Source of the DNA: Scytonema sp. UIC 10036
Lineage (GTDB): Bacteria > Cyanobacteriota > Cyanobacteriia > Cyanobacteriales > Nostocaceae
Assembly (NCBI RefSeq): GCF_009725235.1
Contig: NZ_WJFC01000067.1
Span: 1 to 61,015 of the forward strand
DNA length: 61,015 nt
Direction of reading: 5' to 3'
A model generated the notes under the pieces. It was given only the letters and a program-made list of their open reading frames with translations. It was not told the DNA's origin and searched no databases. Positions 38,331 to 56,280 of this stretch are shown in pieces (position 1 is the stretch's first letter; each line of letters opens with the position of its first letter). The position numbers and the translations under genes are program-made.

Positions 38331-39275
38331 ATGACCCGCTTTCTACATGACCAGTTTGCCAAAGATTACCTCAAAGAATTACTGAAAAACTATGGTTCGG
38401 TCAACACCTCAGAAAAAGTCTCAACAGAGATTAAAGAAATCGATGTCTTATTCATTCCCACTCAACCTCCTCAGGCTGAGATACAAGTCTTAGGTTTATT
38501 GAGCAGATTCGCCGAATTCCCGATGATATTGGAACCCTTCCGCAATCCTGCATCCGAAGATGAAATCTGCGACTGCTTGCTAAAATTATTAGAAGTCAGA
38601 GCATCCATGCGCCGAGAAGCGAAAGCCAAGAAAAGGAAATTGCCAAAACATCAAATCCCGAAACTGTGGATTCTCACTCCCACCGCATCTTCTGACAAAC
38701 TATCGAGTTTTAACATCAATCAAAAACCGGGATGGTTACCAAGAATTTACTTTTTAGGCGGTGCGTTGAGAGCCGCAATTGTCGTCATACACCAACTCCC
38801 AGCGACACCAGAGACATTATGGTTGAGACTTTTAGGTAGGGGACAAGTACAAGAGCAAGCAATTCTGGAGTTGGCTGGGTTACCCTCCGACCATCCCTAT
38901 CAGCAAGCAACGCTAGAATTAGTTTACGACCTGCGGGAAAATTTGAGAGTCAATCGCGATATCAATAAAGACGACCGGGAGTTAATTATGCGATTAGAGC
39001 CACTGTATCAGCGTCATCGAGAACAAGCCAAAGAAGAGGGACGAATTGAAGGACGACAAGAGGGACGAATTGAAGGACGACAAGAGGGACGAATTGAAGG
39101 CGAGCAACGTCTGGTGATGCGTCAGCTTAATCGACTTTTTGGTGAAATCGATGCATCATTAACTCAGCAAATTCGAGAATTATCCCCCGAACAACTCGAA
39201 GCTTTGGGAGAAGTTTTATTAGACTTTTGTGAAGTCGCTGATTTACAAGCTTGGTTAAATCAAACTCAAGCATAG
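38331..39275 (+). CDS. DUF4351 domain protein, copy 2
   Basis: 314 residues, clearly related to the protein at 29288 (same start M-T-R-F-x-H-D-x-F-A-K-D-Y and same DUF4351 end) and nearly identical to the following copy. Near residues 236-260 the octapeptide G-R-I-E-G-R-Q-E is repeated three times in a charged helix, one repeat more than in the next copy. The ATG is preceded by TACAAT about 40 bases upstream. N-terminal PD-(D/E)xK-like motifs (E-I-K-E-I-D-V-L-F) are intact. Confidence 0.85.
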   Translation: MTRFLHDQFAKDYLKELLKNYGSVNTSEKVSTEIKEIDVLFIPTQPPQAEIQVLGLLSRFAEFPMILEPFRNPASEDEICDCLLKLLEVRASMRREAKAKKRKLPKHQIPKLWILTPTASSDKLSSFNINQKPGWLPRIYFLGGALRAAIVVIHQLPATPETLWLRLLGRGQVQEQAILELAGLPSDHPYQQATLELVYDLRENLRVNRDINKDDRELIMRLEPLYQRHREQAKEEGRIEGRQEGRIEGRQEGRIEGEQRLVMRQLNRLFGEIDASLTQQIRELSPEQLEALGEVLLDFCEVADLQAWLNQTQA

Positions 39276-39474: not shown

Positions 39475-40395
39475 ATGACCCGCTTTCTACATGACCAGTT
39501 TGCCAAAGATTACCTCAAAGAATTACTGAAAAACTATGGTTCGGTCAACACCTCAGAAAAAGTCTCAACAGAGATTAAAGAAATCGATGTCTTATTCATT
39601 CCCACTCAACCTCCTCAGGCTGAGATACAAGTCTTAGGTTTATTGAGCAGATTCGCCGAATTCCCGATGATATTGGAACCCTTCCGCAATCCTGCATCCG
39701 AAGATGAAATCTGCGACTGCTTGCTAAAATTATTAGAAGTCAGAGCATCCATGCGCCGAGAAGCGAAAGCCAAGAAAAGGAAATTGCCAAAACATCAAAT
39801 CCCGAAACTGTGGATTCTCACTCCCACCGCATCTTCTGACAAACTATCGAGTTTTAACATCAATCAAAAACCGGGATGGTTACCAAGAATTTACTTTTTA
39901 GGCGGTGCGTTGAGAGCCGCAATTGTCGTCATACACCAACTCCCAGCGACACCAGAGACATTATGGTTGAGACTTTTAGGTAGGGGACAAGTACAAGAGC
40001 AAGCAATTCTGGAGTTGGCTGGGTTACCCTCCGACCATCCCTATCAGCAAGCAACGCTAGAATTAGTTTACGACCTGCGGGAAAATTTGAGAGTCAATCG
40101 CGATATCAATAAAGACGACCGGGAGTTAATTATGCGATTAGAGCCACTGTATCAGCGTCATCGAGAACAAGCCAAAGAAGAGGGACGAATTGAAGGACGA
40201 CAAGAGGGACGACTTGAAGGCGAGCAACGTCTGGTGATGCGTCAGCTTAATCGACTTTTTGGTGAAATCGATGCATCATTAACTCAGCAAATTCGAGAAT
40301 TATCCCCCGAACAACTCGAAGCTTTGGGAGAAGTTTTATTAGACTTTTGTGAAGTCGCTGATTTACAAACTTGGTTAAATCAAACTCAAGCATAG
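39475..40395 (+). CDS. DUF4351 domain protein, copy 3
   Basis: 306 residues, differing from copy 2 by the loss of one octapeptide repeat, one I-to-L change next to it and one A-to-T change near the C-terminus (L-Q-T-W-L). Upstream sequence, start and N-terminal domain are the same. The terminator hairpin after its stop is degenerate (ccgac/gtcgg near 40415), unlike those of the other copies. Confidence 0.85.
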   Translation: MTRFLHDQFAKDYLKELLKNYGSVNTSEKVSTEIKEIDVLFIPTQPPQAEIQVLGLLSRFAEFPMILEPFRNPASEDEICDCLLKLLEVRASMRREAKAKKRKLPKHQIPKLWILTPTASSDKLSSFNINQKPGWLPRIYFLGGALRAAIVVIHQLPATPETLWLRLLGRGQVQEQAILELAGLPSDHPYQQATLELVYDLRENLRVNRDINKDDRELIMRLEPLYQRHREQAKEEGRIEGRQEGRLEGEQRLVMRQLNRLFGEIDASLTQQIRELSPEQLEALGEVLLDFCEVADLQTWLNQTQA

Positions 40396-41723: not shown

Positions 41724-42168
41724 TGGTCACTGGTCACTGGTCACTGGTCAGAAAAAGTCAGAAAAGGTGTGAAATAGTCTTAATCTCCTTGTAGTTGCTG
41801 CAACATTTACGGAATATGAGAAACAACGATTGATGACAAGTACAGAGACACAACGGTAACCAATTGACTGTAAGCAAACAGTAAATAATACCTTATCTAA
41901 CAAAAGGAAATATTAATTTATGTTAATCAGTCAACACCACCTATTTTTCAAATCTAATTTTAAAATGACTAAAGCGATTAAAAACAAAATTTCTATAAAG
42001 AATACAACAAATAGTAACAATCTTGATGATTATATTAATAATTTGCCAAAATTTATCAAAATTCAAAATCTTTTAAATTTCAGCTTGAGCGGATTGGTAA
42101 GACAAACCAGGACATAAATATATTTCTTCCCTACCCCCTACCCCTTACCCCTAACCCCTTCAAAGAAT
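41724..42168. other. Region upstream of the tryptophan-dimer cluster
   Basis: It starts with four to five tandem ggtcact heptamers (41719-41750). A direct repeat cagaaaaagtcagaaaaggt (41749-41768) resembles the core of the control elements at 49571 and 53791. The middle holds a possible small gene (next entry), and the right end has ctaccccctaccccttacccctaacccc heptamer-like repeats (42131-42157). The cluster promoter should be here, but I cannot place it with certainty. Confidence 0.5.
41920..42117 (+). CDS. Possible 65-residue Lys/Asn-rich peptide
   Basis: The ATG follows AAAGGA with suitable spacing. The peptide is rich in Lys, Asn and Ile and has no recognisable domain or signal peptide. 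It lies 51 bases before the CPA-synthase start in the same direction. It could be a leader peptide or chance. Confidence 0.3.
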   Translation: MLISQHHLFFKSNFKMTKAIKNKISIKNTTNSNNLDDYINNLPKFIKIQNLLNFSLSGLVRQTRT

Positions 42169-42258
42169 ATGAGCATCTTAGACTTTCCACGCCTGCACTT
42201 TCAAGGTTTGCTCGCACCCACGCCCCCACGGGACATAAAAACGGTTTGGTCGATCTAA
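42169..42258 (+). other. Out-of-frame N-terminus of the chromopyrrolic acid synthase
   Basis: The ATG at 42169 reads M-S-I-L-D-F-P-R-L-H-F-Q-G-L-L-A-P-T-P-P, the typical start of VioB/RebD proteins, then stops shortly after. The conserved continuation (G-L-V-D-L-S-T-N-T-V) is in another frame from 42243. One additional C in the run of five at 42223-42227 would join both parts as ...A-P-T-P-P-T-G-H-K-N-G-L-V-D-L-S. This is a frameshift mutation, a sequencing error, or a switchable homopolymer. Confidence 0.8.
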
Positions 42259-45200
42259 GTACCAACACAGTTTATATGGAGGGCGAACGTTTTGACCACA
42301 GTCGTCCTTTATCGGAATACCACGAATATCTCCAAACCTTGGGACCTCGGTTTAATGCTCAAGGACAATGGGACGAAAGCGGTTCTTTCAGTATGGCAAA
42401 GGGTTGGGACTTTGGCGGAAACGGTCACTTTGCGATCGAAGCAAAAATTGTCAGTACTCAACGCGAACCAGGACAAGTTGACCAGCAAGACCCAGCAGTC
42501 GGACGCAGTATTGATATGTGGGGTCACTTCAATGATTACTTAGCCACAACTTTCAATCGCGCCCGTATCTTTGAGTGCGATCCTGCTTCCAATTGGACAA
42601 CCACAATTATGGTCGGTCAACTGACTTTTGGAAGACAGGGTGTATCCCATGAAGTTCCATATATGCTCTCAGCTCCTGTTGAAGGGATGCAACCTGCTCG
42701 TTGGCAAAACTTTAACTACATCCGAGAATTACCAGAACATGCCCTCAACAATGAGTTCAAACGTGCAGCAGTCTATCAATTCGTCATACCTAAACACGCT
42801 AAAGATTTGCTCTGGGGCGAAGAGACAGCACTTTCACCAACCGTTTCTCTACTGCGTTCTGCAATGGAACGGGAAGATGTGTTGGGCGTGGTTGTACAGT
42901 TCAGTTTAAGCAATATGTCGGCTCCGTTACAACCGGACTCACCAGTGTTTTGGCATTTACATGGAACTATCGGTTTGTGGTGTGAAGGTGAACTGACGAC
43001 TTACCCACAAGGTCGGTTGTTAACTCCCCGCCACGTCTTCCAAAATCCCGAAGACAGAACACTGTCTAACCTGACAGTTGAAATTACCCCTCAAGGTGCT
43101 AGCTTGAATATGGTAACAGCAGTTCCTTGCAAGGGACGCGCTACTCAAGCAGGACCGGGACCGACTCATGCGATCGCTTCCAAGCTTGACTTGGGTGACT
43201 TGGAACTGCGTACAGTTAACAGTCAGCGATTGGTAGCGCGAATTCCCAAGGAAGCATACCAACAACAAGCACATCAACTTACAAGTGGTATTGTAGACGT
43301 ACCTTTGGCAGAACCTTTTGAGCATCTGTCTCATGAGATCGAACAACAGGGTTTGTGCATTGTTGGAACACTTAACGGTCAGCGACAGATTTTAGTTCGG
43401 GAAGAGGAAATTAACCTCCAAGTTAACGACGCCTGTTTGTTTGTAGAATTTCCAGATGAAAAGCGTGGGTTAGACTATGCCATAGAATTAGAGGTGCGGT
43501 CTTTTGTTCGAGGTCGTCCCGCACCAGTTGAAATCTACTTGCGCCAATTTTACAATCCCAAAGGTTTGCCCCAGTTGCGTTATGACTTCGATCGCAATCC
43601 AGAAAATGCCGATAAAACTTTCTACTTTCCCCATAGTATAGATATCGTACATTTCAAACCCGGTAAGCAGTACGAGATGGGTGATTTTACGGCTACAACT
43701 GCGATCGCAACTGACAACCAAGGACGCGGTTGGGTAACTGTACGTGGAGTTCAATCGGGGACTGCACGAGTCCTCCTATCAACACGGGCTGACGAAATAC
43801 CGGGGGATGCTTCTCATCCCGACCAAGCCCTCATTAGCTACGATAACGAAGATCGCCTTGGCTTCTGGTCTGGGGCTGGTTCTTTCGCCGTTCGAGTTCT
43901 CCCCAACAATTGGCACTTAGAAGACATTCCAGATGAGTCAGTAGACTTTAACCTCATTTACGAGCATATCCTCGCTTTCTACGAACTTTCTTTTTCCTTT
44001 ATGAAAGCCGAGGTCTTCAGTTTAGCGGACAAATGCAAGGTAGAAACTTATGCTCGCCTCATGTGGCAAATGTGCGACCCTTGCAACAAAAACAAAACCT
44101 ACTATATGCCACCTACACGAGATATGTCCCAACCTCAAGCCATGCTTCTACGTAAATATTTGCAAAACCAACAGCGAGTGGGCTATGTTCCTGAAACCAA
44201 GCCAACGCCAAAGAGCACTCAGCGCACCATTCAAACTCGTGATGAACTGGTAGCTGCCCTGCGACACGCTGCAGAACTTGAGGTTGCAGTTATGTTGCAG
44301 TATGTTTACGCTGCATACTCCATTCCCAACTATGTCACAGGTGAAGAGTACGTGCGCCGGGGCTTGTGGACTCCCGAACAACTGCGTCTGGCTTGCGGTG
44401 ACAATCAGGAAGGACACGACTATGGAATGCGGGGTGTGTTGTTGGATATCTCTCGCGAAGAGATGGTTCATTTCTTGATGGTCAATAATATCTTAATGGC
44501 GATCGGCGAACCTTTCTATCCAGCTATACCCAATTGGAATGAAGCGAATCGACGCTTCCCTATCGAAGTCGATTTTGCTCTAGAACCCTTTGGTGCATCT
44601 AGCTTGCAGCGATTTTTACAATTTGAATTGCCTGACTTTTTGGTGGAAGATTTGGCTCATGAAACTGAACCAAACGACCCAAGTGTTGATAAGCTGCACG
44701 GTTATGGTTCCTTAAGCGAACTGTATCGTCAAATCCGGGCTGCGATCGAAAATATTCCAGATTTAATTGTTGTTAAAAAGGGTTGCGTGGGTGGCGAACA
44801 CCACTTATTCTTGCGTAAGGATACTAATAAATCTCACCCTGATTATCAGTTCCAAGTAGATGACGTGAAAAGCGCTCTCTTTGCCATTGACTTAATTGTC
44901 GAGCAGGGCGAAGGTTGTGAGGCAGAGTCATCTAAATTTGAAGAATCTCATTATCAAAAATTCCGGCGTGTTGCAGATGCATTGGCTCGGGAGCAAACGA
45001 TTGATGCGACTACCGGGCATAATTTACCTTGGAATCCAGCATATCCTGCACTGCGTAACCCCACGCTCTATCACAAAGATTACAACTCTACTGTTGTTAC
45101 TGTTCCCCAAACTAGGGCTGTCATGCAGATTTTTAATGAGTCTTACTATTTAATGATGCAACTGATGGTGCAGCATTTTGGGTTAATGCCTCATGGTAGT

Positions 45201-45515
45201 ATGCGGCGATCGAAACTGATGAATGCAGCTATTGATGTGATGACGGGTATGATGCGTCCTTTGGGTGAGTTGCTGATGACTATGCCTTCTGGGAAACGCG
45301 GGAAAACGGCTGGTCCTTCTTTTGAGATTGCTAACCCACCTGCGTATATTCCAGCACCAGAAATTGCGTATCGGGCGATCGCAAGTCGATTTGAACGGTT
45401 GAGTCATGAGGCTAGAGAGTGTGAAGTTATTCCTAGCATGGTTTACGAAATGTTTGATTTCTACGCGAGATATTTCGAGGATTTTGCAAAGAATCCCCAG
45501 CACATTTTGGGTTAA
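42246..45515 (+). CDS. rebD: Chromopyrrolic acid synthase / VioB-type tryptophan-dimer synthase
   Basis: 1089 residues as read from a TTG at 42246; about 1115 if the N-terminal frameshift is repaired. RebD, StaD and VioB are haem enzymes that couple two indole-3-pyruvate imines; RebD/StaD give chromopyrrolic acid. The match is long and strong: D-L-S-T-N-T-V-Y-M-x-G-E-R-F, W-G-H-F-N-D-Y-L-A-T-T-F-N-R-A-R-I-F, S-L-A-D-K-C-K-V-E-T-Y-A-R-L-M-W-Q-M-C-D-P, then the ferritin-like part (E-L-E-V-A-V-M-L-Q-Y-V-Y-A-A-Y-S-I-P and E-E-M-V-H-F-L-M-V-N-N-I-L-M-A). The C-terminal M-N-A-A-I-D-V-M-T-G-M-M-R-P-L is also typical. Details favour RebD/StaD over VioB. First gene of the cluster. Confidence 0.9.
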   Translation: MVDLSTNTVYMEGERFDHSRPLSEYHEYLQTLGPRFNAQGQWDESGSFSMAKGWDFGGNGHFAIEAKIVSTQREPGQVDQQDPAVGRSIDMWGHFNDYLATTFNRARIFECDPASNWTTTIMVGQLTFGRQGVSHEVPYMLSAPVEGMQPARWQNFNYIRELPEHALNNEFKRAAVYQFVIPKHAKDLLWGEETALSPTVSLLRSAMEREDVLGVVVQFSLSNMSAPLQPDSPVFWHLHGTIGLWCEGELTTYPQGRLLTPRHVFQNPEDRTLSNLTVEITPQGASLNMVTAVPCKGRATQAGPGPTHAIASKLDLGDLELRTVNSQRLVARIPKEAYQQQAHQLTSGIVDVPLAEPFEHLSHEIEQQGLCIVGTLNGQRQILVREEEINLQVNDACLFVEFPDEKRGLDYAIELEVRSFVRGRPAPVEIYLRQFYNPKGLPQLRYDFDRNPENADKTFYFPHSIDIVHFKPGKQYEMGDFTATTAIATDNQGRGWVTVRGVQSGTARVLLSTRADEIPGDASHPDQALISYDNEDRLGFWSGAGSFAVRVLPNNWHLEDIPDESVDFNLIYEHILAFYELSFSFMKAEVFSLADKCKVETYARLMWQMCDPCNKNKTYYMPPTRDMSQPQAMLLRKYLQNQQRVGYVPETKPTPKSTQRTIQTRDELVAALRHAAELEVAVMLQYVYAAYSIPNYVTGEEYVRRGLWTPEQLRLACGDNQEGHDYGMRGVLLDISREEMVHFLMVNNILMAIGEPFYPAIPNWNEANRRFPIEVDFALEPFGASSLQRFLQFELPDFLVEDLAHETEPNDPSVDKLHGYGSLSELYRQIRAAIENIPDLIVVKKGCVGGEHHLFLRKDTNKSHPDYQFQVDDVKSALFAIDLIVEQGEGCEAESSKFEESHYQKFRRVADALAREQTIDATTGHNLPWNPAYPALRNPTLYHKDYNSTVVTVPQTRAVMQIFNESYYLMMQLMVQHFGLMPHGSMRRSKLMNAAIDVMTGMMRPLGELLMTMPSGKRGKTAGPSFEIANPPAYIPAPEIAYRAIASRFERLSHEARECEVIPSMVYEMFDFYARYFEDFAKNPQHILG

Positions 45516-45624
45516 TCGACTTCTTGCGTAAATATTTTTTGTCTCACGCAAAGCCGCAAAGGCGCAAAGGAAAAGTACGCAAAAATTGACTTTGCAAGCA
45601 CTTTAATAAAGTTAGGGGGAAGTT

Positions 45625-47214
45625 ATGAAACTGGAAACAGATGTTCTCATTGTTGGTGGCGGACCGGTTGGTTTATCGACAGCACTAGAATTGCGTTACC
45701 AAGGTATTAATTGTATCCTGATAGAGCAATCGGATGGTGTGGTGACTGACCCCAAAGTCAGTACGGTTGGACCCCGCTCGATGGAGCTTTACCGCCGTTG
45801 GGGTATTTCTCAGCAAATACGCAATGCTGGATGGCCTGTTGACCATACTTTAGATGTTGCATGGGTAACGGCTGTTGGTGGTTATGAAATATACCGCATT
45901 CATTTTCCGTCTTATGCAGAGAGAACCTTACCTGAATATACGCCAGAACCAGAGCAAGTTTGCCCTCAAAATTGGGTTGCGCCCGTTCTAATGGATGCTT
46001 TGGGAGAATATCCATCAGGAGTTATTAAGCTTCTTTGTCGTTTGGACAGCTTTGAACAAACGGAGGAAGAAGTTGTCGCTAAGGTGACGAATATTGAATC
46101 GGGAAACACGGAATTTATCCACGCCAAGTACTTGGTGGCTTGTGATGGTGCTCGCAGTACAGTCCGTAAAGCTTGTAACGTTGAGACTCCATCATTCCAT
46201 CCCACTCAACTGTTTCAAAGCGTTGTGTTTAATGCACCAGAGTTACCAAGCCAGTTGGGATCGCGCAATGCTATGGTTTTCTTCCTGGTTAACCCTACGT
46301 TACAAGAACCGCTCCGGGCTGTGGATGGACGGGGATCGTACCGCTTGATTCTTAAACCAAAAGCAGATGGTGAGTTGCGTGACCCGGAAGAAGCTGTTCG
46401 AGAAGCGATCGCAATAGATACCCCTATTGAAATTGTTTCCAATCTTAAATGGTACCTTACCCATCGTGTTGCTGACCAATTCCGTCAAGGGCGCGTGTTC
46501 TTTGCAGGCGATTCTGCTCATACCCTCTCACCTTCTGGTGGTTTTGGTATGAATACGGGGATATGTGATGCACTCGATCTGGGTTGGAAACTGGCGGCAA
46601 CCCTCAAAGGTTGGGGCGGAGAAAAATTGCTCGATACTTATGAAATGGAAAGGCGTCCTATTGCAGTCAGAAACCTTGAAGAAGCGAATGCTAACCTCCA
46701 ACGCGGTCAAAAACGTGCTGTCCCTCCAGAAATTATGAGCGATTCTCCTGAAGGCGAAGCAATCCGAAATTCTATGGCTGAAGGTTTGGAGCGTAGTGGC
46801 GTTAAGCGTGAGTTCGACGCACCAGGAGTTCATTTTGGATTCCGTTATGAGTCAGCGATCGTTATCCCTGATGGTACGCCTCCTAACAGCGATCCTTTCC
46901 AATGGACTCAGAATAGTTATCCCGGATCGCGAGCACCCCATGCATGGTTAGAACCTGACAAATCTATATTGGATCTCTTTAGTCAAGGGTATGTGCTGCT
47001 GTGCTTTCAAGGACAACAAGGAACTGAAAATTTTGCCAAAGCTTGCTACGACAGACACGTTCCACTGACAATCAGCTTTATCGAAAAACCGGAGATTGCG
47101 AAACTTTATGAACGAGCATATGTACTTGTGCGTCCAGACGGACACGTTGCTTGGAGAGGCGATGCTTTACCTAGCGATCTAGGTACTCTTATCGATCGCG
47201 TGCGAGGTTGCTAA
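45625..47214 (+). CDS. rebC: RebC/StaC-type FAD-dependent oxygenase
   Basis: 529 residues, FAD-binding aromatic hydroxylase family. It has G-G-G-P-V-G-L (residues 11-17), the D-G motif C-D-G-A-R-S-T-V-R-K (about 173-182) and G-D-S-A-H-T-L-S-P-S-G-G-F-G-M-N-T-G. Long blocks coincide with RebC as I remember it: G-P-R-S-M-E-L-x-R-R-W-G, A-G-W-P-x-D-H, R-E-F-D-A-P-G and H-V-A-W-R-G-D. RebC and StaC act with the P450 to turn chromopyrrolic acid into arcyriaflavin or K252c. At known RebC substrate positions it has K44 (Arg46 in RebC), V218 (Phe216), R231 (Arg230) and R240 (Arg239), a mixture of RebC and StaC features. A GGGGGAAG ribosome site precedes the ATG. Confidence 0.9.
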   Translation: MKLETDVLIVGGGPVGLSTALELRYQGINCILIEQSDGVVTDPKVSTVGPRSMELYRRWGISQQIRNAGWPVDHTLDVAWVTAVGGYEIYRIHFPSYAERTLPEYTPEPEQVCPQNWVAPVLMDALGEYPSGVIKLLCRLDSFEQTEEEVVAKVTNIESGNTEFIHAKYLVACDGARSTVRKACNVETPSFHPTQLFQSVVFNAPELPSQLGSRNAMVFFLVNPTLQEPLRAVDGRGSYRLILKPKADGELRDPEEAVREAIAIDTPIEIVSNLKWYLTHRVADQFRQGRVFFAGDSAHTLSPSGGFGMNTGICDALDLGWKLAATLKGWGGEKLLDTYEMERRPIAVRNLEEANANLQRGQKRAVPPEIMSDSPEGEAIRNSMAEGLERSGVKREFDAPGVHFGFRYESAIVIPDGTPPNSDPFQWTQNSYPGSRAPHAWLEPDKSILDLFSQGYVLLCFQGQQGTENFAKACYDRHVPLTISFIEKPEIAKLYERAYVLVRPDGHVAWRGDALPSDLGTLIDRVRGC

Positions 47215-47231
47215 TTGTCATTAATTCAGTA

Positions 47232-47297
47232 AGTCAGTAGTTAGCAATTCACCGACTAACTCACCACTAACCACTAACCACTAACTACTAACCACTT
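47232..47297. repeat. Heptamer repeats (CTAACCA) before the GST gene
   Basis: About six imperfect copies of actaacc/actaact at 47260-47293, same family as at 2889 and 53598-53955. They fill the gap between two cluster genes. Confidence 0.7.
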
Positions 47298-47975
47298 ATG
47301 AAACTTTATTACGCCCCAGCCTCATCCTACTCCCAGCGAGTTCTCATCGCTCTTTATGAAAAAGACGCAGCTTTTACACCAATAGAAGTTAATCTTTTTG
47401 ATAAAGAAGAGCGATCGCTCTATACAAAAATTAATCCTTTTGCCAAAATTCCCACCCTAGAAACCGAATCCGGTAAAATACTTTTCGAGGCTTGCATCAT
47501 TATTGAATATCTCGATCAAAGGTTTCAAAACAAACCTCACTTAATCCCACAAGATCCAAAGCTAGCTTTAGAAGTCCGAATGCTTGAACGGATCGTTGAC
47601 GTGTACATTAACCGAGGACGTGAAGCGTTATTTTCAGACTCTCAGCGCCCGGTGGAAGAACAAGGGAGTAGTGAGGTAAAGAAAGCACATCGGTTACTAG
47701 AGACAGCGTGCTTGCAAATGGAAGAAAGATTGTCAGGTAGAACTTGGCTGGTTGGGGAAGAGTTCTCCCTTGCAGACTGTGCTGCTGCACCCACCTTAAG
47801 TTACCTACGTATGGTTTACAGCTACAAGCATTTCCCTCAATTAACAGATTATGTTCGGCGTTTGGAATCCAGACCATCTGTGGCAAAAGTTCAAAACTTC
47901 GGACGCGAGCAAATGATACAAATGCTGTCTGCGTTGAAAAACCCACTTGAATTAGTGTCGTTGGATAATTGTTAA
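47298..47975 (+). CDS. Glutathione S-transferase family protein
   Basis: 225 residues: an N-terminal thioredoxin-like domain (M-K-L-Y-Y-A-P-A-S-S-Y-S-Q-R-V, catalytic Ser in the S-x-x-S-Q-R region; N-P-F-A-K-I-P-T-L, cis-Pro) and a C-terminal helical domain (F-S-L-A-D-C-A-A-A-P-T). It resembles maleylacetoacetate isomerase/zeta-type and bacterial GSTs. GSTs are not part of the known reb or sta clusters, so its role here is open: conjugation, isomerisation of an intermediate, or protection. Same direction and short spacing imply co-regulation with the cluster. Confidence 0.8.
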   Translation: MKLYYAPASSYSQRVLIALYEKDAAFTPIEVNLFDKEERSLYTKINPFAKIPTLETESGKILFEACIIIEYLDQRFQNKPHLIPQDPKLALEVRMLERIVDVYINRGREALFSDSQRPVEEQGSSEVKKAHRLLETACLQMEERLSGRTWLVGEEFSLADCAAAPTLSYLRMVYSYKHFPQLTDYVRRLESRPSVAKVQNFGREQMIQMLSALKNPLELVSLDNC

Positions 47976-48155
47976 TGGCTAATTGCTCAATAATATCAAA
48001 TCCGTTTGTATCAGAATTATTTCTCTTTTCTCTTTCTCTACGCTCTCAGCGCCTCTGCGGTTTTTTAATCGTTCAGATGCTACCGGATTTGATATAACAT
48101 CTTTTCAATCCAAAATCCAAAATCTAAAATCCAAAATAATCATAACGGAGTAAAA

Positions 48156-49406
48156 ATGACCGTTTCTACAATTGAAAGACTCAACCCATTTATACCGGAA
48201 GTCATCGCAGATCCCTATACAGTGTATCGTCGCTATAGAGAAGAAGACCCCGTGCATTGGGGGATTTCTGCAAATCCCCAACTACCTGGTGCTTGGTATA
48301 TCTTCCGTTATAATGATGTCATGCAAGTGATGGAAGACCGTAGATTTGGTCGCGAAACCTTGAACGAACGAGAGGATGTTGAAACTACGCCAGTACCAAC
48401 AGCATATAATGCGTTCCTGTCTCTGGTAAGTAACTGGATAGTTTTCCGGGAACCACCCAATCATACACGGCTAAAATCGCTGGCTAGCAAGGCATTTACC
48501 CCAAAAATTGTCGAAAACATTCGTCCAGCCATCTACGAAATCGCAGACAGTCTGTTGGATAAAGTCCAGAACCGTGGAGAATTGGACTTAGTTGAGGATT
48601 TCGCTTTCCCTCTGCCAACCAAGGTAGTTGCTATTATGCTAGGTGCTGACCCAGAAGACCTTCCATTGTTTCGTCAATGGGCATTAGCCATGCAGCATGC
48701 CAGTGCTTCCCGTTTGAAACCACCACCAGAAGTTTACGAAAAGGCAAACCAGGGTGCTCAGTCATTTATCGACTATTTTACTCCTCTGATTACAGAGCGA
48801 CGTGCCAATCCACGAGAAGACTTAATCTCAGCTTTAGTTAAGGCGGCTGATGAAGGCGACAAATTGAGCGACTTTGAAATCGTGGCTACTTGTACTCACC
48901 TGTTGACAGCAGGACATGAGACCACAATCAATTTGATTGCGAAGGGAACTCTGGCGTTACTCTACCATCCAGAAGCACTCAAAAAGTTACGCTCCCATCC
49001 TGAACTTATTCCTTCAGCCGTAGAAGAGTTCGTCCGCTACGACACCCCAATCCAGATGGTAACGCGGTGGGCTTATGCAGATGTTGAAGTTGGTGGCAAG
49101 TTAATCCGGCGTGGAGATAGCGTAGGTATCATGCTTGGCTCAGCGAACCGAGATCCCGCTCAATTTAAAAATCCTGATGTTTTGGATATACAACGTCAAG
49201 AAAACAAACATAGTGCCTATGGCGGTGGTATCCATTACTGTCTTGGTTCGTCCTTAGCTCGTGCTGAGGGACAGATTGCAATCAATGTGTTGCTAAACCG
49301 TTTACCCGAACTTCGTTTGCTAGACGAGAAGATTGAGTGGGCAAATAACATCGTGTTTCACGGTCCCAATCATCTAAGGGTTGCTTTTAATAAACCTGTA
49401 GTTTAA
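48156..49406 (+). CDS. rebP: StaP/RebP-type cytochrome P450
   Basis: 416 residues, soluble bacterial P450. I-helix L-T-A-G-H-E-T-T (near 251-258), ExxR helix, and haem-binding G-G-G-I-H-Y-C-L-G with Cys362. Several blocks match StaP as I remember it: A-D-P-Y-x-V-Y-R-R-Y-R-E, H-L-L-T-A-G-H-E-T-T, V-T-R-W-A-Y, G-S-A-N-R-D-P-A-x-F, and V-F-H-G-P near the end. StaP/RebP catalyse aryl-aryl coupling of the two indoles of chromopyrrolic acid. ATG with GGAG six bases upstream. The upstream gap (47976-48155) holds interspersed ctcagcgcctctgcgg and aatccaaaatc repeats. Confidence 0.9.
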   Translation: MTVSTIERLNPFIPEVIADPYTVYRRYREEDPVHWGISANPQLPGAWYIFRYNDVMQVMEDRRFGRETLNEREDVETTPVPTAYNAFLSLVSNWIVFREPPNHTRLKSLASKAFTPKIVENIRPAIYEIADSLLDKVQNRGELDLVEDFAFPLPTKVVAIMLGADPEDLPLFRQWALAMQHASASRLKPPPEVYEKANQGAQSFIDYFTPLITERRANPREDLISALVKAADEGDKLSDFEIVATCTHLLTAGHETTINLIAKGTLALLYHPEALKKLRSHPELIPSAVEEFVRYDTPIQMVTRWAYADVEVGGKLIRRGDSVGIMLGSANRDPAQFKNPDVLDIQRQENKHSAYGGGIHYCLGSSLARAEGQIAINVLLNRLPELRLLDEKIEWANNIVFHGPNHLRVAFNKPVV

Positions 49407-49570
49407 AGATTTCCAAGAAATAAATTATCCATCTTGTGGTGTTAGCGTCCTCGCCCGTACCTTATTCATAGCGGGCAAGATGTCCGCACCATAAGAGTGA
49501 TAAAATACACATAGCCCACCACTAAGGCTTTTGGTGGGCTTTAGCCCTACCTACTACAGTCATAAAAAGA

Positions 49571-49670
49571 CAGAAAAGGTCAGAAAAGGTCTGTACTCAA
49601 GCTACAGAGCTATTCGGTTTCCGAAAATGCCTCAGTTCTTGATGGTAACTAGATATAGATGACATTCACT
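49571..49670 (+). promoter_or_regulatory. Cluster control element, copy A
   Basis: 100 bases that match 53791-53890 without gaps at 88 positions. It starts with the direct repeat cagaaaaggt cagaaaaggt and contains ctgtactcaa, ctacagagctatt and ccgaaaatgcctca, ending gacattcact 70 bases before the VOC start. No frame is conserved. The same distance to the start in the second copy suggests a promoter or operator unit. The preceding 49407-49560 holds only a ggtgggctttagccc-type palindromic repeat. Confidence 0.5.
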
Positions 49671-49740
49671 GAAGATGTTACCTTCCCACCACTGGTCACT
49701 GGTTCTCAAAGGCAGTCTAACTAATGAGGTAAAAAATAAC

Positions 49741-50112
49741 ATGAGTATTATACAAGGGTTGACAAAAGCGATTCTTTATGTAAGAGACATAGACACACAA
49801 ATAAAGTTTTACCGCGACCAATTGGGGCTTGAGGTCAAGTCGTTTATGAGTATAGATGGACGCAGCGACAAACAGTGGGTGGAGTTTGCAACTGGTGAAT
49901 GCACTTTGGTTCTGCACGGTAATATGGATAAGGACTTCGGTAAGGATAGACCTAAACTGGCATTTCGCGTTGATGATTTTGAAACAGCTTACAATACGTT
50001 AATTGAGCGTGGTGTTAAACTCGGTCCCGTTCGTTCACCTTCACCTGGTTTAAAAGTGGCTGAAGGTCTCGATCCAGAAGACAACCCGTTTACCATTGAT
50101 TGCCAAAAATAA
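49741..50112 (+). CDS. VOC (glyoxalase/bleomycin resistance) superfamily protein
   Basis: 123 residues from the ATG at 49741, chosen because GAGG lies ten bases upstream; an ATG at 49675 would add 22 residues that do not fit the fold. The VOC fold starts A-I-L-Y-V-R-D-I-D-T-Q-I-K-F-Y-R-D-Q-L-G-L. E/H metal ligands are not complete (a His is seen in L-V-L-H-G), so it may be a binding or resistance protein rather than a metalloenzyme. Position between two P450 genes suggests a tailoring or self-protection role. Confidence 0.8.
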   Translation: MSIIQGLTKAILYVRDIDTQIKFYRDQLGLEVKSFMSIDGRSDKQWVEFATGECTLVLHGNMDKDFGKDRPKLAFRVDDFETAYNTLIERGVKLGPVRSPSPGLKVAEGLDPEDNPFTIDCQK

Positions 50113-50263
50113 TGGTTTGTTGCACTAATTTTGATAAATTGAAAAAACCTTACTAGGCGCTGAAATCGCAGAGAAAAAGAAGGAGAGAATCAATCGAACA
50201 ACGTTTTTATTTATCAAAATTAGTTAAATCAATTGATGGAAAAATTTAATCATAGAAAAAGTC

Positions 50264-51658
50264 ATGTTAAAGTCAGATATAAACAAATCGAATAATCCAA
50301 CTTCTACAATTCCAGATGTCTTCTCTTTACCTGGTCCTAAAGGCAAGTTTTTACTGGGAAATTTGGTTGAATTTGAACAAAGTCCCCTTGGATTTCTGAC
50401 CCAATGCGCTCAACAATATGGTGGGATTGTTCCTTTCCGTTTGGGAGCGAATCCAACGATTTTGATAACTGAGCCTGAGTATATTGAGCAAGTCTTTAAA
50501 AACCGGGAGTTGTTTGGTACTCCAAAAATATTGAAAGTCCTTTTTCGCACTTTATTGGGACAGGGGCTTTTAACGAGTGATGGAGATACTTGGCTTCGCC
50601 AGCGCCGTTTATCTCAACCTGTCTTTCACCAAAAACGTATTGCTGGTTATGGTGAGGTGATGGTTGCCTATACTGAAAAAATGCTTGCTTCTTGGCAAAA
50701 TGGGGAAACAAAAGATATTCAAGCTGAGATGATGCATCTCACCTTTAACATTGTAATGAAGACTCTTTTTAGTCGGGATGCGACTGACAAAGAGGCTGAA
50801 GATGTAGCTTTAGCAATGGGTTTGGCGGCTCCTTGGTTTGTGGACAACCGTAAATCTCCTTTCCCTGCTTTGTCTAAGAGGCTCCCAACTCCGTCCAATC
50901 GTCGCTATAGATCTGCTGTCCGCCAATTGGATAAGTATATTTACAGTATTATCGAACAACGGCGCTCTAGTGGAGAAGATCCTGGGGATTTGCTGTCGAT
51001 GATGATGCAAGCACGGGATGAAAATGATGGCTCTCAAATGAGTGACAAGCAATTGCGCGATGCGATCGCCACTCTCATTTTCGCCGGACATGAAACGACT
51101 GCAAATAGTTTGGCTTGGACGTGGATGCTTTTATCTCAGCATCCTGAGGTGCAAACCAAGTTACAACAAGAACTCCAAGAAGTTTTGGGCGATCGCTCTC
51201 CGACTCTTGCAGACCTTGTTTCTTTACAATACACCAATATGGTGGTGAAAGAATCAATGCGGCTGTATCCAGTTGTGTGGAATAGAGTCAGTGAAGCTAG
51301 CCAGGACTGCGAACTTGGCGGTTATCGAGTCCCCGCAGGTTGTACGGTGATTATTAGCCAATGGGTTATGCATCGCTGCGATCGCTATTTTAACAATCCA
51401 GAAGCATTTTATCCAGAGCGTTGGGCTAACGACTTAGAAAAACAACTTCCTAGAGGTGTTTATGCACCCTTTGGCGATGGACCCCGTACTTGCATTGGTA
51501 GAAGCTTTGCATTGATGGAAGCCGTTTTATTATTAGCAACCATTGCCCAAAAATTTGAACTTAATCTTATTCCCAATCAGACAATTATTCCCGAACCAAC
51601 TATGACTTTACAACCTAAAAATGGGATTAAAGTTGTAGTCAGTAAACGAGACAATTGA
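50264..51658 (+). CDS. CYP110-like cytochrome P450
   Basis: 464 residues with the proline-rich start L-P-G-P-K-G-K-F-L-L-G-N-L, I-helix F-A-G-H-E-T-T-A-N (near 272), ExxR (E-S-M-R-L) and haem-binding F-G-D-G-P-R-T-C-I-G with Cys410. The type resembles the CYP110 family of cyanobacteria (fatty acid, terpene or other lipophilic substrates) and differs from StaN, the second P450 of staurosporine clusters. Within this cluster it could oxidise the indolocarbazole core; this is inference. No transmembrane anchor is visible. Confidence 0.88.
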   Translation: MLKSDINKSNNPTSTIPDVFSLPGPKGKFLLGNLVEFEQSPLGFLTQCAQQYGGIVPFRLGANPTILITEPEYIEQVFKNRELFGTPKILKVLFRTLLGQGLLTSDGDTWLRQRRLSQPVFHQKRIAGYGEVMVAYTEKMLASWQNGETKDIQAEMMHLTFNIVMKTLFSRDATDKEAEDVALAMGLAAPWFVDNRKSPFPALSKRLPTPSNRRYRSAVRQLDKYIYSIIEQRRSSGEDPGDLLSMMMQARDENDGSQMSDKQLRDAIATLIFAGHETTANSLAWTWMLLSQHPEVQTKLQQELQEVLGDRSPTLADLVSLQYTNMVVKESMRLYPVVWNRVSEASQDCELGGYRVPAGCTVIISQWVMHRCDRYFNNPEAFYPERWANDLEKQLPRGVYAPFGDGPRTCIGRSFALMEAVLLLATIAQKFELNLIPNQTIIPEPTMTLQPKNGIKVVVSKRDN

Positions 51659-51956
51659 GATGCTGATAACAAGGAAAATAGACTTATATGCTATTTTAAG
51701 TAAGTCGGCAAAATCCTTAATAGTTCGTAGTTGCTCTATTTTCGCCTGCATCGCAACTACGAACAGATAAATAAGATTTTACATGATTAATAAATTTTCA
51801 ATTACGAATTATACTAATTTCAACAAAGAATGCGACACATAGTTGCTTCAAATCCAGCATATACATGGTTTTCTCAATCCAAAATCTAAAATCTAAAATC
51901 CAAAATGGTATTATTTCGTCACTGTTACCGATAATTCTTAATAAGGAAACAATAAT
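51659..51956. other. Spacer before the MFS-FHA gene
   Basis: About 300 bases without a gene. Near the right end are hexa/heptamer repeats aatctaaaatctaaaatccaaaat (51883-51906), also found at 48110-48137. AAGGAA precedes the next ATG by nine bases. No copy of the 100-base control element is present. Confidence 0.5.
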
Positions 51957-53597
51957 ATGAGTCCCTCTACTATGAAAGCTAAACCAACGAGTCCCGGCAA
52001 TCTATCCCAGGATAAAAATTTTTACATCATTAATGCTTTAACACTTATAGCAATTTTAGGGGGGACAGTTTTTAACCCAGCGCTACCAACTATCTCGCAA
52101 GTTTTTAACGTTTCCAGCGAACAAGTAGCACTAGTAGCAACACTCTTTCAGTTACCTGGTGCAATTGTCACTCCAATATTCGGAGTTTTAGCTGACACTT
52201 TTGGTAGAAAGCAAATCCTAGTTCCTTCGCTGCTGCTATTTGCTCTAGGGGGAATGTTAAGCGGCTTTGCTCAAAACTTCCGCAGTCTTTTAGAGTGGAG
52301 AGTTGTGCAGGGTATTGGGACTGCAAGCCTAGAATCGTTGCAGCTGACTATCATTGGTGACCTCTATAGGGGAAGACAACTCGGCGCTGTAATGGCATTT
52401 AATGCTGGCTTGATTGGTATGAGTTCAGCACTCTTTCCTCTCATTGGCGGATTATTAACTGGATTTAGTTGGCGATTGCCGTTTATGATATCCTTTGTTG
52501 CTGTTCCGGTCGCATTATTGGTCTTATTCACCCTCAAGCTACCAAAGCAACAGACTAACCCCCAAAATTTTAAACTAAAACCATATCTGCAAAATACTTG
52601 GAGCAGCATTAACAATCGTCAGGTTTTAGGGTTGATGTTTGCGGTGATGATTCAATTCATGCTGCAAGTTGGAACCTGTTTAGTTTACATTCCACTCCTA
52701 GCAGGAGAACTAGGTGCATCTGCTGGTTTTAATGGCTTTCTACTTGCTAGCATATCGATATCTGTTGCCATAGTTGCTTCTCAACTAGGACGAATTACAC
52801 AGAAATTTTCTGAAATTAAACTCATCAAATTTTCTTTCATTTTAGCTGCTTTGGCATTCGCTATTATCCCGATAATTCATAACGTTTGGCTGCTTTTTAT
52901 CCCTATCTTGTTAATTGGTGCATCTCAAGGTCTGGCGTTTCCATCTACCCAAGCACTGCTAGCAGGACTTGCCGCACAAGAATCTCGCGCTGGCTTTATG
53001 GCGGTCAATTCAACAGTTCAATCGTGGGGACAAACACTTGGTCCATTTCTAGGAAGTCTCATTGATATAATATGGGGAACCCGAATTGTCTTTGCAAGCA
53101 GTGCTATTATTTCCCTCATCTCATTGGTCATTTTCCATGCTCTGCTCACAACTAAAAAACCAAGCCCCAGCCCCTCCCCAGATCATCCCTCAGTTGCTCT
53201 CAACTTTGTTAATGCAGAACAAGTCAATCTCGGAGAAAGCTTTGTTGAAGTTCCCACAGTTGCAGAAAAACCCATTGCTAGATTATTCCATATTCAGAGC
53301 AATAAAGTTATTGAACTACCGGAAAACTTCTCTCTCCTTCGGATAGGAAAACCTAACAGACGCAGTTTTCCTGATATCGATTTGTCTGCATTACCCAATT
53401 CCGATATCGTTTCTCGGATTCATGCGGAAATTAAGTTTGAAGGAGGAGAGTACTACATTCAAGATATGGGTAGTTCTAATGGAACTTATATTAACAAATA
53501 TCCTCTCTTACCTGGAATTTGGTATAAATTGAAGCCCGGTTTAACCTTCAGCATCGGTAGACGAGATGCAGTTTCTTTCAAATTTCAAATTGCTTAA
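51957..53597 (+). CDS. MFS exporter fused to a C-terminal FHA domain
   Basis: 546 residues. The first 400 form a 12-helix major facilitator (motif A: G-V-L-A-D-T-F-G-R-K near 75-84; typical of drug-efflux DHA families). Residues about 455-546 form an FHA domain: R-I-G-K-P-N-R-R, the phosphothreonine-binding S-R-I-H-A-E-I and S-S-N-G-T-Y-I-N are all intact. FHA domains bind phosphothreonine, so transport or location may be controlled by a Hanks-type kinase. I do not know another MFS-FHA fusion. It is probably the export or self-resistance gene of the cluster, like RebT in the rebeccamycin cluster. Confidence 0.85.
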   Translation: MSPSTMKAKPTSPGNLSQDKNFYIINALTLIAILGGTVFNPALPTISQVFNVSSEQVALVATLFQLPGAIVTPIFGVLADTFGRKQILVPSLLLFALGGMLSGFAQNFRSLLEWRVVQGIGTASLESLQLTIIGDLYRGRQLGAVMAFNAGLIGMSSALFPLIGGLLTGFSWRLPFMISFVAVPVALLVLFTLKLPKQQTNPQNFKLKPYLQNTWSSINNRQVLGLMFAVMIQFMLQVGTCLVYIPLLAGELGASAGFNGFLLASISISVAIVASQLGRITQKFSEIKLIKFSFILAALAFAIIPIIHNVWLLFIPILLIGASQGLAFPSTQALLAGLAAQESRAGFMAVNSTVQSWGQTLGPFLGSLIDIIWGTRIVFASSAIISLISLVIFHALLTTKKPSPSPSPDHPSVALNFVNAEQVNLGESFVEVPTVAEKPIARLFHIQSNKVIELPENFSLLRIGKPNRRSFPDIDLSALPNSDIVSRIHAEIKFEGGEYYIQDMGSSNGTYINKYPLLPGIWYKLKPGLTFSIGRRDAVSFKFQIA

Positions 53598-53708
53598 TTA
53601 GTTAGTGGATAGTGGTTAGTGGATAGTTGTTAGTTGTTAGTTGGCGATTACTAATGAAGTCAGACTGATAATGAATAATTAGCATTCCTTGCACTGTGTA
53701 GATTCCTG

Positions 53709-53745
53709 CAAGATTCCCGACTTCTTAGAGAAGTCGGGAATCTTG
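53709..53745. terminator. Strong bidirectional hairpin after the MFS-FHA gene
   Basis: CAAGATTCCCGACTTCT pairs with its complement AGAAGTCGGGAATCTTG across a few bases, 16-17 base pairs. Short T-tract only. The preceding 53600-53642 has gttagttgttag-type heptamers. Confidence 0.65.
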
Positions 53746-53790
53746 TAGAAAGTAACTTGATACCAAGAGTCATAAAAACTAGTAAAAAGA

Positions 53791-53890
53791 TGGAAAAGGT
53801 CAGAAAAAGTCTGTACTCAAACTACAGAGCTATTTGGTTTCCGAAAATGCCTCAATTCTAGATGATAGTTAAATATAGAAGACATTCACT
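53791..53890 (+). promoter_or_regulatory. Cluster control element, copy B
   Basis: Matches copy A (49571-49670) at 88 of 100 positions with no gap. It ends 66 bases before the second MFS gene (70 in copy A). Heptamer repeats (ccactatccactaacaac type, 53897-53955) fill the space to the start codon. Confidence 0.5.
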
Positions 53891-53956
53891 TAAAACCACT
53901 AACAACCAACCACTATCCACTAACAACTAACCACTATCCACTAACAACTAACCACT

Positions 53957-55198
53957 ATGAAACTTCAACAAGATAAATCAAATCTTACATACAAAGATAA
54001 CAATCTCAATATCATCATCAGTGTAACACTCACATCCGTGATGGGTGTGATGGCTATCAACCCTGCACTACCAGCCATTGGGGAAGCCTTTAAGGTTCCA
54101 AATGAACAAATTGGATTGGTTATGGCAAGCTTTTTGATACCAATTGCAATTGGAACTCCAATCTTTGGGGTTTTGGCTGACCGTATTGGCAGAAAGAAAA
54201 TTCTCATTCCTTCTTTACTACTGTTTGCACTTGGCGGAATTTTAAGTGCTTTTGCAAGGGATTTTCGCAGTTTATTAGAGTGGAGATTTTTGCAAGGCGT
54301 TGGCGCTGCTAGTTTAGAGTCTTTGTCTCTTACTGTAATTGCTGATGTTTACTCCGGGAAGATGTTGACTGCAGCTATGGCATTTAACGCCAGTATGATT
54401 GGTTTGAGTGCAACAGTTTATCCTCTTGTTGGCGGTGGATTGGCACAACTCAGCTGGCAATACCCATTTTTCCTCTCAGTTTTTGCTCTTCCAATTGCAT
54501 TATTAGTGTTGACACAGCTAAAACTACCAAAGACTCAAAGCCAAAGGTCTGTTGATGAGTTCAAGCTCAAAGCCTACTTGAGAAGTACTTGGAAGAGTAT
54601 TAACAACCGCTCTGTATTGGCGCTGTTGTTTGCGGTGTTGTCTTTATTTATCTTAGAATTTGGTTCTTGCTTTATCTGCATTCCACTTCTAGCGGCAAAT
54701 AATCTTGGTGCATCTGGTGCAGTCATTGGTATTATCCTTGCCAGTATGGAAATAACTCTTGCTTTGTTTGCTTCTCAATTGGGATGGTTTGCTCAGAAGT
54801 TCTCTGAAGTTACACTTATCAAAATCTCTTTCGTTGTTTGTGCGGTATCATTATTGATTGCTCCCTTAATGAGCAATGTGTGGCAGCTTTTTATCCCTGT
54901 TCTCATATTTGGTGCAGGTCTTGGTATTGCGCTACCATCCATCCAAACAGTATTTGCACGCCTTGCACCAGAGGACAATCGCGCTGGATTTATGGCTATG
55001 AATGTGACTCTCCAATCTTTGGGGAGAGCGCTAGGTCCCGCTTTAGTAGGCATTGCTTTTGGATTTGTAGGAATTCAAGGAGCCTTATATGCTAGCGCTA
55101 TTTTCGCCCTTGTCACATTCATAGTGCTGAATTCTTTCCTAGTAAGAACAACACAAAAACCTGAGTTTGTTGGGAAAAGTGAGCATTACATTGGGTAA
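53957..55198 (+). CDS. MFS exporter, paralogue without FHA domain
   Basis: 413 residues, 12 predicted helices, clearly homologous to the transporter part of the preceding gene (V-M-A-I-N-P-A-L-P-A-I-G, G-V-L-A-D-R-I-G-R-K-K-I, L-L-E-W-R-F-L-Q-G-V-G-A-A-S-L-E-S-L, R-S-T-W-K-S-I-N-N-R). The protein ends soon after the last helix. The pair arose by gene duplication with gain or loss of the FHA domain. A role in exporting the cluster product or a precursor is plausible. Confidence 0.88.
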   Translation: MKLQQDKSNLTYKDNNLNIIISVTLTSVMGVMAINPALPAIGEAFKVPNEQIGLVMASFLIPIAIGTPIFGVLADRIGRKKILIPSLLLFALGGILSAFARDFRSLLEWRFLQGVGAASLESLSLTVIADVYSGKMLTAAMAFNASMIGLSATVYPLVGGGLAQLSWQYPFFLSVFALPIALLVLTQLKLPKTQSQRSVDEFKLKAYLRSTWKSINNRSVLALLFAVLSLFILEFGSCFICIPLLAANNLGASGAVIGIILASMEITLALFASQLGWFAQKFSEVTLIKISFVVCAVSLLIAPLMSNVWQLFIPVLIFGAGLGIALPSIQTVFARLAPEDNRAGFMAMNVTLQSLGRALGPALVGIAFGFVGIQGALYASAIFALVTFIVLNSFLVRTTQKPEFVGKSEHYIG

Positions 55199-55205
55199 AT
55201 CATTC

Positions 55206-55315
55206 TGTAGGGTGGGCTAAAGCCCACCAAAAGGCGAATATAGTGAACAATACCTACCCTACTTAACAAACAACAAATGACAAATGACAAATGACAAATG
55301 ACAAATGACAAATAA
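55206..55315. repeat. gtagggtgggctaaagccc palindrome and AAATGAC heptamers
   Basis: 55206-55258 is an imperfect palindrome (gtagggtgggct ... cctaccctac), a relative of the sequences at 1856 and 49507. It is followed by seven copies of the heptamer aaatgac (55267-55313). Confidence 0.75.
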
Positions 55316-55320
55316 CCCTT

Positions 55321-56280
55321 ATGAATAGCTTAAAAAGAAGCTTATTAATTTTTAATAATTTAACTTTAGCTAAAAAACTGACTGCACTCCTGTTACTTAT
55401 ATTTATTGAAGGAATTGCTCTAAGCGGAATAGCTTTAGCTAGTGTTTTAAATTACAAAACACAATATGAAATTAGCTCAAGTGCATGGTTATTGCTTCAG
55501 ACTCTAAACTCCGTCCGCTCTTACACGACAACTGAAGTTGTTCCTCAATTACAATCTCGTTTAGATAATAATGAGTTTATACAGCAGGCTATACCAGCAT
55601 ATTCTTCACGAAAAGTCTTGGAAGATTTCCAAAAGAAAAATGATAAGTTTAAAGACTTTCTTTATAAGGAAGCAATGCTGAACCCTACTAATCTTCGAGA
55701 TAAAGCAGATACTTTTGAAACGACAATTGTTAAAGAATTTCAAAAGCAAAAAAGTCTCAATAGCTTATCAGGATTTCGTTCTATTTTTGGAAAAAACTTT
55801 TTTTACATTGCTCTCCCTCTATCTATAACTGAATCTAGTTGCTTGCAGTGTCACAGCACACCTGATGTCGCTCCTAAAACTATGATTGATATATATGGTG
55901 ATCGCAATGGTTTTGGCTGGAAATTAAATATGATTAATGGTGCTCAAATTGTTTCTATTCCCGCTCATGAAGTTTTGCAAAAAGCCAGACAATTCCTAGT
56001 TTTAGTTATGGGGGTTGTCACTCTAATTTTTGCCAGTGCTATATATATAGCTAATTTTTGGCTCAAACGTTATGTTGTTAAGCCTATTAAACAAGTTGTT
56101 CGGGTAACAGAAGCAGTAAGTACTGGTAATTTTGATGTTGAGTTTGAGAAGGTATCGAATGATGAAATAGGGAGCTTGATAGAAGCTTTTACACGTATGA
56201 AGTTGAGTTTGATTATGGCAATTAGAAGATACGAGCGTTACCGAATGGTAAATCGAGAAACTCATGATAAAAAAGCATGA
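55321..56280 (+). CDS. Tll0287-like haem-domain (DUF3365) sensor with HAMP
   Basis: 319 residues: transmembrane helix (about 20-42), an external domain of the DUF3365/Tll0287 type with a c-type haem motif C-L-Q-C-H (C174-H178), a second transmembrane helix (about 224-246) and a HAMP region (V-V-K-P-I-K-Q-V-V-R-V-T-E-A-V-S). The protein stops after HAMP without a kinase or methyl-accepting domain, so it must signal through a partner or has lost its output. Last co-directional gene after the cluster; redox or gas sensing is inferred from the haem motif. Confidence 0.8.
   Translation: MNSLKRSLLIFNNLTLAKKLTALLLLIFIEGIALSGIALASVLNYKTQYEISSSAWLLLQTLNSVRSYTTTEVVPQLQSRLDNNEFIQQAIPAYSSRKVLEDFQKKNDKFKDFLYKEAMLNPTNLRDKADTFETTIVKEFQKQKSLNSLSGFRSIFGKNFFYIALPLSITESSCLQCHSTPDVAPKTMIDIYGDRNGFGWKLNMINGAQIVSIPAHEVLQKARQFLVLVMGVVTLIFASAIYIANFWLKRYVVKPIKQVVRVTEAVSTGNFDVEFEKVSNDEIGSLIEAFTRMKLSLIMAIRRYERYRMVNRETHDKKA

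Follow-up and report, generated by a model that had tools for sequence, protein, structure and literature searches.

Between positions 42169 and 56280, the 61,015-nt stretch of Scytonema sp. UIC 10036 analysed here (NZ_WJFC01000067.1; hereafter the window, in which all positions are given) carries what is very likely a cluster of biosynthetic genes whose product is an indolocarbazole from the tjipanazole lineage of cyanobacteria. It very probably joins two tryptophans into the indolocarbazole, a compound class that takes in staurosporine and the tjipanazoles. The assignment to this class draws on the match of one protein to RebC, the best database match of a cytochrome P450, the family of a RebD-like protein, phylogenetic trees, a gene order shared by many cyanobacteria, and a glutathione S-transferase (GST) with a homologue named Tjp3. 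It is also favoured by tryptophan-supply genes near related clusters, by oxidase genes in some of those clusters and elsewhere in the nearest relatives, by purifying selection and by the rarity of matches to the tryptophan-halogenase family PF04820. These lines of evidence concern gene content, kinship, conservation, selection and predicted folds, from which every reaction and the product are inferred. Nine open reading frames (ORFs), all on the + strand, make up the locus, as an earlier note made from the DNA letters had described. Pfam and NCBIfam scans assigned them, in order, to the ferritin-like and VioB/RebD families, FAD monooxygenases, GSTs, P450s, glyoxalase/VOC proteins, P450s again, major facilitator superfamily (MFS) transporters with an FHA domain, MFS transporters, and Tll0287-like proteins with a HAMP domain. 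Neither a tRNA nor any Rfam family at gathering score was found in the window.

The three features of an indolocarbazole cluster, a RebD/StaD-type synthase, a RebC/StaC-type flavoenzyme and a StaP/RebP-type P450, were all present, which bears out the claim of such a trio in a cyanobacterium. The predicted chromopyrrolic acid synthase (42169..45515, +) scored 940 bits in the VioB/RebD family model and 127 bits against the ferritin-like Pfam family. Since the VioB equivalog cut-off is 1250, this score fits a relative of RebD and not VioB. A PDB search with the same protein gave no credible match (one chain, E=0.25). The flavoenzyme gene (45625..47214, +) encodes a protein that matched RebC from end to end in the PDB search (663 bits, E=2e-198; next different enzyme, 184 bits) and scored 660 bits against 4eip, which has ten differences from RebC and which we take to be RebC-10x, an engineered StaC-like RebC variant. 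This variant and the reb/sta chemistry are treated in the available part of PMC10851217. For the first P450 (48156..49406, +), the putative indole-indole coupling enzyme, the best PDB chain was 2z3t (384 bits, E=9e-114; next, 308 bits), labelled in the results table only as 'Cytochrome P450' and presumably StaP.

Trees of the three core proteins, whose roots are not known, agreed with these matches. In the RebC tree, 31 cyanobacterial RebC-like proteins lay on one side of a branch (support 96/94) and 19 others, RebC included, on the opposite side; 25 cyanobacterial RebD proteins were likewise set apart (100/100). In the P450 tree, 18 cyanobacterial and 16 actinobacterial StaP-type P450s from rebC loci joined at 100/98 against ten second P450s, so that the StaP-type enzymes of both phyla come together, with RebC and RebD showing separate cyanobacterial sides; the cyanobacterial StaP-type rows do not appear as one clade, as two label changes are needed. 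The idea that some clusters lack StaP was rejected, as a homologue occurred in all 11 genomes searched (65–97% identity, one partial), nine of which came from loci without a visible StaP gene, those of G518 and G521 lying on short contigs. In Brasilonema UFV-L1, the StaP-type P450 (L029:12469-13725) is 91% identical to that at 48156-49406 and RebC only 73%, which points to clusters having exchanged genes.

The window thus has the core trio in common with the rebeccamycin (reb) and staurosporine (sta) clusters, and differs from them in the separate grouping of its RebC- and RebD-like proteins and in having no RebO/StaO-like oxidase. The GST and the VOC protein had no match in 18 non-cyanobacterial loci (flanks of at most 10 kb either way, E<=1e-5), three of which gave weak MFS matches (44–53 bits). 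The core genes also speak to the alternative that the cluster makes no indolocarbazole but a different bisindole, for instance one of the violacein or indolotryptoline type. RebD and VioB do belong to one family model, but the score below the VioB cut-off and the presence of RebC-like and StaP-like genes argue against it. Streptomyces uncialis, the cladoniamide producer species according to the accessible text of PMC12842986, has a locus (L018) with homologous RebD (44%), RebC (50%) and P450 (42%) and also a second RebC-like gene; none was found in the window, a difference that further lowers this alternative, which we regard as very unlikely.

The link to tjipanazoles comes from the GST (47298..47975, +). 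A search with it listed Tjp3 of Symphyonema bifilamentata 97.28 (formerly Fischerella ambigua 108b), 67% identical to the window protein, and in a quick tree Tjp3 fell among the cluster GSTs (a fork of 20 rows, SH-aLRT 100), its exact neighbours not being settled. This strain, the tjipanazole producer, carries the tjp cluster, like the window's a cyanobacterial indolo[2,3-a]carbazole pathway with a homologous GST. The Tjp3-type GST adjoins the core genes in the window too, and by this gene content the cluster is of the tjipanazole type, the gene-level comparison with tjp being made through Tjp3 alone. The name 'Tjp3' itself retrieved only unrelated genes and peptides from the literature. The earlier note set the GST and VOC genes apart from known reb/sta clusters; this stands for the non-cyanobacterial loci and, read as a remark on all known clusters, fails for tjp as regards the GST. 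The structure predicted for this protein (pLDDT, a model confidence score, of 90) has a GST fold. Residues S9, S10, R14, P52 and E64 are constant in 25 GSTs (24 from clusters plus Tjp3), and 24 of them have Ala at position 65, where the best PDB match has Ser; given this difference, the usual glutathione site of the cluster GSTs may be altered.

Clusters of this kind recur in some cyanobacteria. When genome contigs were scanned, 29 loci came to light, of which 11 are cyanobacterial. At E<=1e-60, five of 388 genomes sampled from the order had a RebC-like gene, in one case no more than a 39% relative. At E<=1e-100, RebC-like genes were present in 28 of 217 genomes sampled from the family of Calothrix PCC 7103; that strain, PCC 7716 and Brasilonema sp. 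CT11 are among the carriers. In a set of 31 loci to which the window belongs, rebD was present in 28, the GST in 25, StaP in 19 and VOC in 12, and second P450s were of the window's type in three and of another type in ten. These counts use presence thresholds set by the analyst, leave out the 39% relative (L082) and a near-duplicate (L062), and are lower bounds where a gene is absent, as the flanks reach no further than 10 kb or the end of the contig (in L006 and L074 the sequence breaks off at rebC). In 18 of the loci rebC is directly followed by the GST, and in 24 the GST is one of the two ORFs after it. The RebC-like protein also matched 188 plasmid records, all below 60% identity; the ten rows examined were all actinobacterial, and no cyanobacterium was among the ten largest genera (33 further genera were tallied). 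Homologues of the VOC, FHA-MFS and GST proteins occur in Aetokthonos hydrillicola Thurmond2011 (P0036, P0061, P0225; longest contig 506,670 bases), which may carry a related cluster. The 'one indole' antiSMASH cluster listed for Brasilonema CT11 in the accessible part of PMC7503407 may be of the same kind as the window's. In the available portions of the literature, searches on cyanobacterial indolocarbazole clusters found no described cluster or product of the same family besides tjp and the tjipanazoles.

Genes near the related clusters fit a tryptophan-derived product. TrpEG, IGPS, TrpA, TrpB, TrpD and DAHP synthase genes each lie near four to eight of the 31 clusters, and an amino-acid oxidase gene is present in 15 of these loci. 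The two nearest relatives have amine oxidase homologues of 71–73% elsewhere in the genome, unlinked to the cluster, and Calothrix PCC 7103 and PCC 7716 have homologues of 77–78% away from theirs.

Several points weigh against this reading of the locus. The first is that a tblastn search of the whole window with a cyanobacterial amine oxidase gave no match at E<=1. The lack of an in-cluster RebO/StaO-type oxidase makes the cluster less complete and leaves untouched the view that it works like one; in the source organism the tryptophan oxidase would presumably act in trans. Second, the RebC versus StaC outcome is not readable from the sequence. Comparison of two PDB sequences gives F216 and R239 for RebC and V216 and N239 for the StaC-like variant 4eip, and all 31 cyanobacterial proteins combine V216, which is StaC-like, with R239, which is RebC-like. 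Elsewhere, R is combined with either F or V in 17 actinobacterial rows, and Burkholderia has A and T.

Third, the first ~26 conserved residues of rebD, starting from the ATG at 42169, are out of frame with the long ORF (42246-45515, 1089 aa). This N-terminus is in frame in all 25 relatives whose start lies in the sequence examined, and the disruption leaves the working state of the window's copy uncertain. The source organism might therefore harbour a decaying copy and make no product, an explanation that deserves attention even if we hold it to be the less likely one. The remaining 1089 codons are open and evolve under constraint, with a ratio of nonsynonymous to synonymous divergence (dN/dS) of 0.08–0.09 against two relatives, so any loss would be recent; moreover, a sequencing or assembly error, or a TTG start at 42246, could leave rebD working. 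The product class named in the earlier note is supported; the note overlooked this disruption, the absence of a tryptophan oxidase from the window and how commonly some cyanobacteria carry the core set.

The remaining points concern the product, which is probably a non-chlorinated, oxidised indolocarbazole to which linked genes add no sugar. Among the tjipanazoles there are chlorinated compounds and glycosides. A halogenase and a glycosyltransferase are thus expected for tjp from the compounds (not from its gene list), but neither family was found among the 45 window ORFs of at least 130 aa (E<=1e-5; E<=1e-3 in a first family scan). A search of 20 genomes that carry such a cluster left 18 without a match to the tryptophan-halogenase family PF04820 at E<=1e-30. 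One match each was found in G008, on another contig, and in one of the two nearest relatives (G523), where it is partial and lies 7.5 Mb from the cluster. A classical tjipanazole, that is, a chlorinated and/or N-glycosylated indolo[2,3-a]carbazole, would agree with the GST shared with the tjipanazole producer and with the same core enzyme types, and its halogenase or glycosyltransferase could be unlinked, only the 61-kb window having been examined for the source organism; the missing families nevertheless make such a product unlikely.

Among the features that the cluster, in the preferred tjipanazole-lineage reading, has of its own are the VOC-fold protein (49741..50112, +) and the second P450 (50264..51658, +; Pfam p450, 329 bits), a putative tailoring oxidase that the earlier note called CYP110-like. 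The VOC ORF opens at 49675, and since the relatives listed are mostly about 123 aa long, its probable start is 49741. The family is narrow (42 relatives). Its model resembles the antibiotic-binding proteins TnmS and TioX, with 12–24% sequence identity, many VOC proteins, metalloenzymes included, falling within about 2 Z units; the first two Foldseek rows were uncharacterised proteins. K9, V57, K72 and T118 occupy what we take, without a superposition, to be the four metal positions of glyoxalase I, where the metal ligands appear not to be retained. The proposal of a sequestering protein draws on this non-exclusive fold likeness, the apparent loss of metal positions and the narrow family. The protein might instead catalyse a tailoring step, as a VOC that closes or cleaves a ring would, which we consider possible, if less probable.

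Calothrix PCC 7103 and PCC 7716 (L002, L003) share the order of the VOC and second P450 genes with the window; theirs are the only two other loci of the 31 with a P450 of the window's type (>=60% identity; 71%). We compared the window with two close relatives, L063 (G522) and L064 (G523). For eight of the nine genes, at least one of the two has a counterpart (dN/dS 0.04–0.21), the second P450 has none in either, and for the second MFS gene L063 offers only a paralogue (dN/dS 0.24). Synonymous divergence (dS) was 0.34–0.42 in rebD, rebC and GST against both relatives and 0.34–0.35 in the second MFS and sensor genes against L064. It rose to 0.72–0.76 in the FHA exporter and 1.5–2.4 in VOC, and for StaP was 0.40 against L063 and 2.17 against L064; values above 1.4 (VOC, and StaP against L064) are near saturation. 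DNA similarity to L063 ends at ~49.7 kb and returns at 52.0 kb, an interval in which only a 74% VOC stretch is left against L064. The VOC and second P450 genes thus apparently form a cassette swapped between conserved blocks. The FHA-tailed exporter is a further feature that the cluster has of its own.

A 111-bp intergenic repeat lies upstream of VOC (49563..49673, +) and, with 88% identity, upstream of the second MFS gene (53783..53893, +); similar copies occur between cluster genes in L063 and L064. Short tandem GTCAGAAAA-type repeats related to it are found ~390 bp upstream of the ATG at 42169 (41747..41780, +). The pattern GTCAGAAAARGTCTG, picked after the repeats had been seen, has eight matches in the window with two mismatches allowed (0.32 expected), five of them in these three intergenic stretches. 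The 111-bp repeat, with its tandem GTCAGAAAA-type motifs, might serve in shared regulation or mark a point of recombination.

Two predicted exporters follow the cassette. The first (51957..53597, +; MFS_1 205 bits) has a C-terminal FHA domain (51 bits), a domain that reads phosphothreonine, and this pairing is also found in many of the 120 relatives listed; the second (53957..55198, +; MFS_1 199 bits) is 91% identical in L064. A Ser/Thr kinase-family gene adjoins the FHA-MFS gene in three related loci (L002, L003 and L005), an arrangement suggesting that phosphorylation controls the export of what may be a kinase inhibitor. The last gene (55321..56280, +), with a homologue in eight of the 31 loci, encodes a membrane sensor-type protein of the Tll0287-like and HAMP families with a CxxCH motif in its translation; family scans matched no output domain. 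Upstream of the cluster lie three similar DUF4351 ORFs (29288-30184, 38331-39275 and 39475-40395), with related copies upstream of the clusters in L063 and L064 as well.

The steps to the aglycone can be modelled on the reb/sta chemistry described in the part of PMC10851217 at hand. An unlinked oxidase would convert tryptophan to indole-3-pyruvate imine, two molecules of which the RebD-like enzyme would couple to chromopyrrolic acid; the StaP-type P450 would then link the two indole C2 atoms, and the RebC-like flavoenzyme would guide the dicarboxy intermediate, which is unstable, towards a defined aglycone. The GST related to Tjp3 may act on, or protect, an intermediate, the second P450 might contribute one oxidation, the VOC protein could bind and sequester the planar product or an intermediate as self-protection, and the two MFS pumps would export the product. 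A bolder proposal is that the VOC and second P450 cassette expands a ring of an indolo[2,3-a]carbazole to give a calothrixin-type quinone, the GST and P450 opening one indole ring. Calothrixins come from Calothrix. A published biomimetic calothrixin synthesis passes through indolo[2,3-a]carbazole, according to the available section of PMC4728514, and literature searches on calothrixin biosynthesis or its gene cluster found, in the portions at hand, no described cluster of the same family besides tjp. We consider this proposal decidedly improbable; if true, these clusters would supply the calothrixin-type pathway that has so far been missing.

Indolocarbazoles inhibit kinases and topoisomerases and are of interest as drugs. 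A 2021 cblaster screen found the tjp cluster in no organism except its producer, as far as the accessible text of PMC8065813 goes, and RebC-like genes of this kind are nonetheless present in more than a tenth of the genomes sampled from one family (28 of 217). With the VOC/P450 cassette apparently swapped and the blocks around it conserved, the clusters would offer a natural series for learning the role of each tailoring gene.

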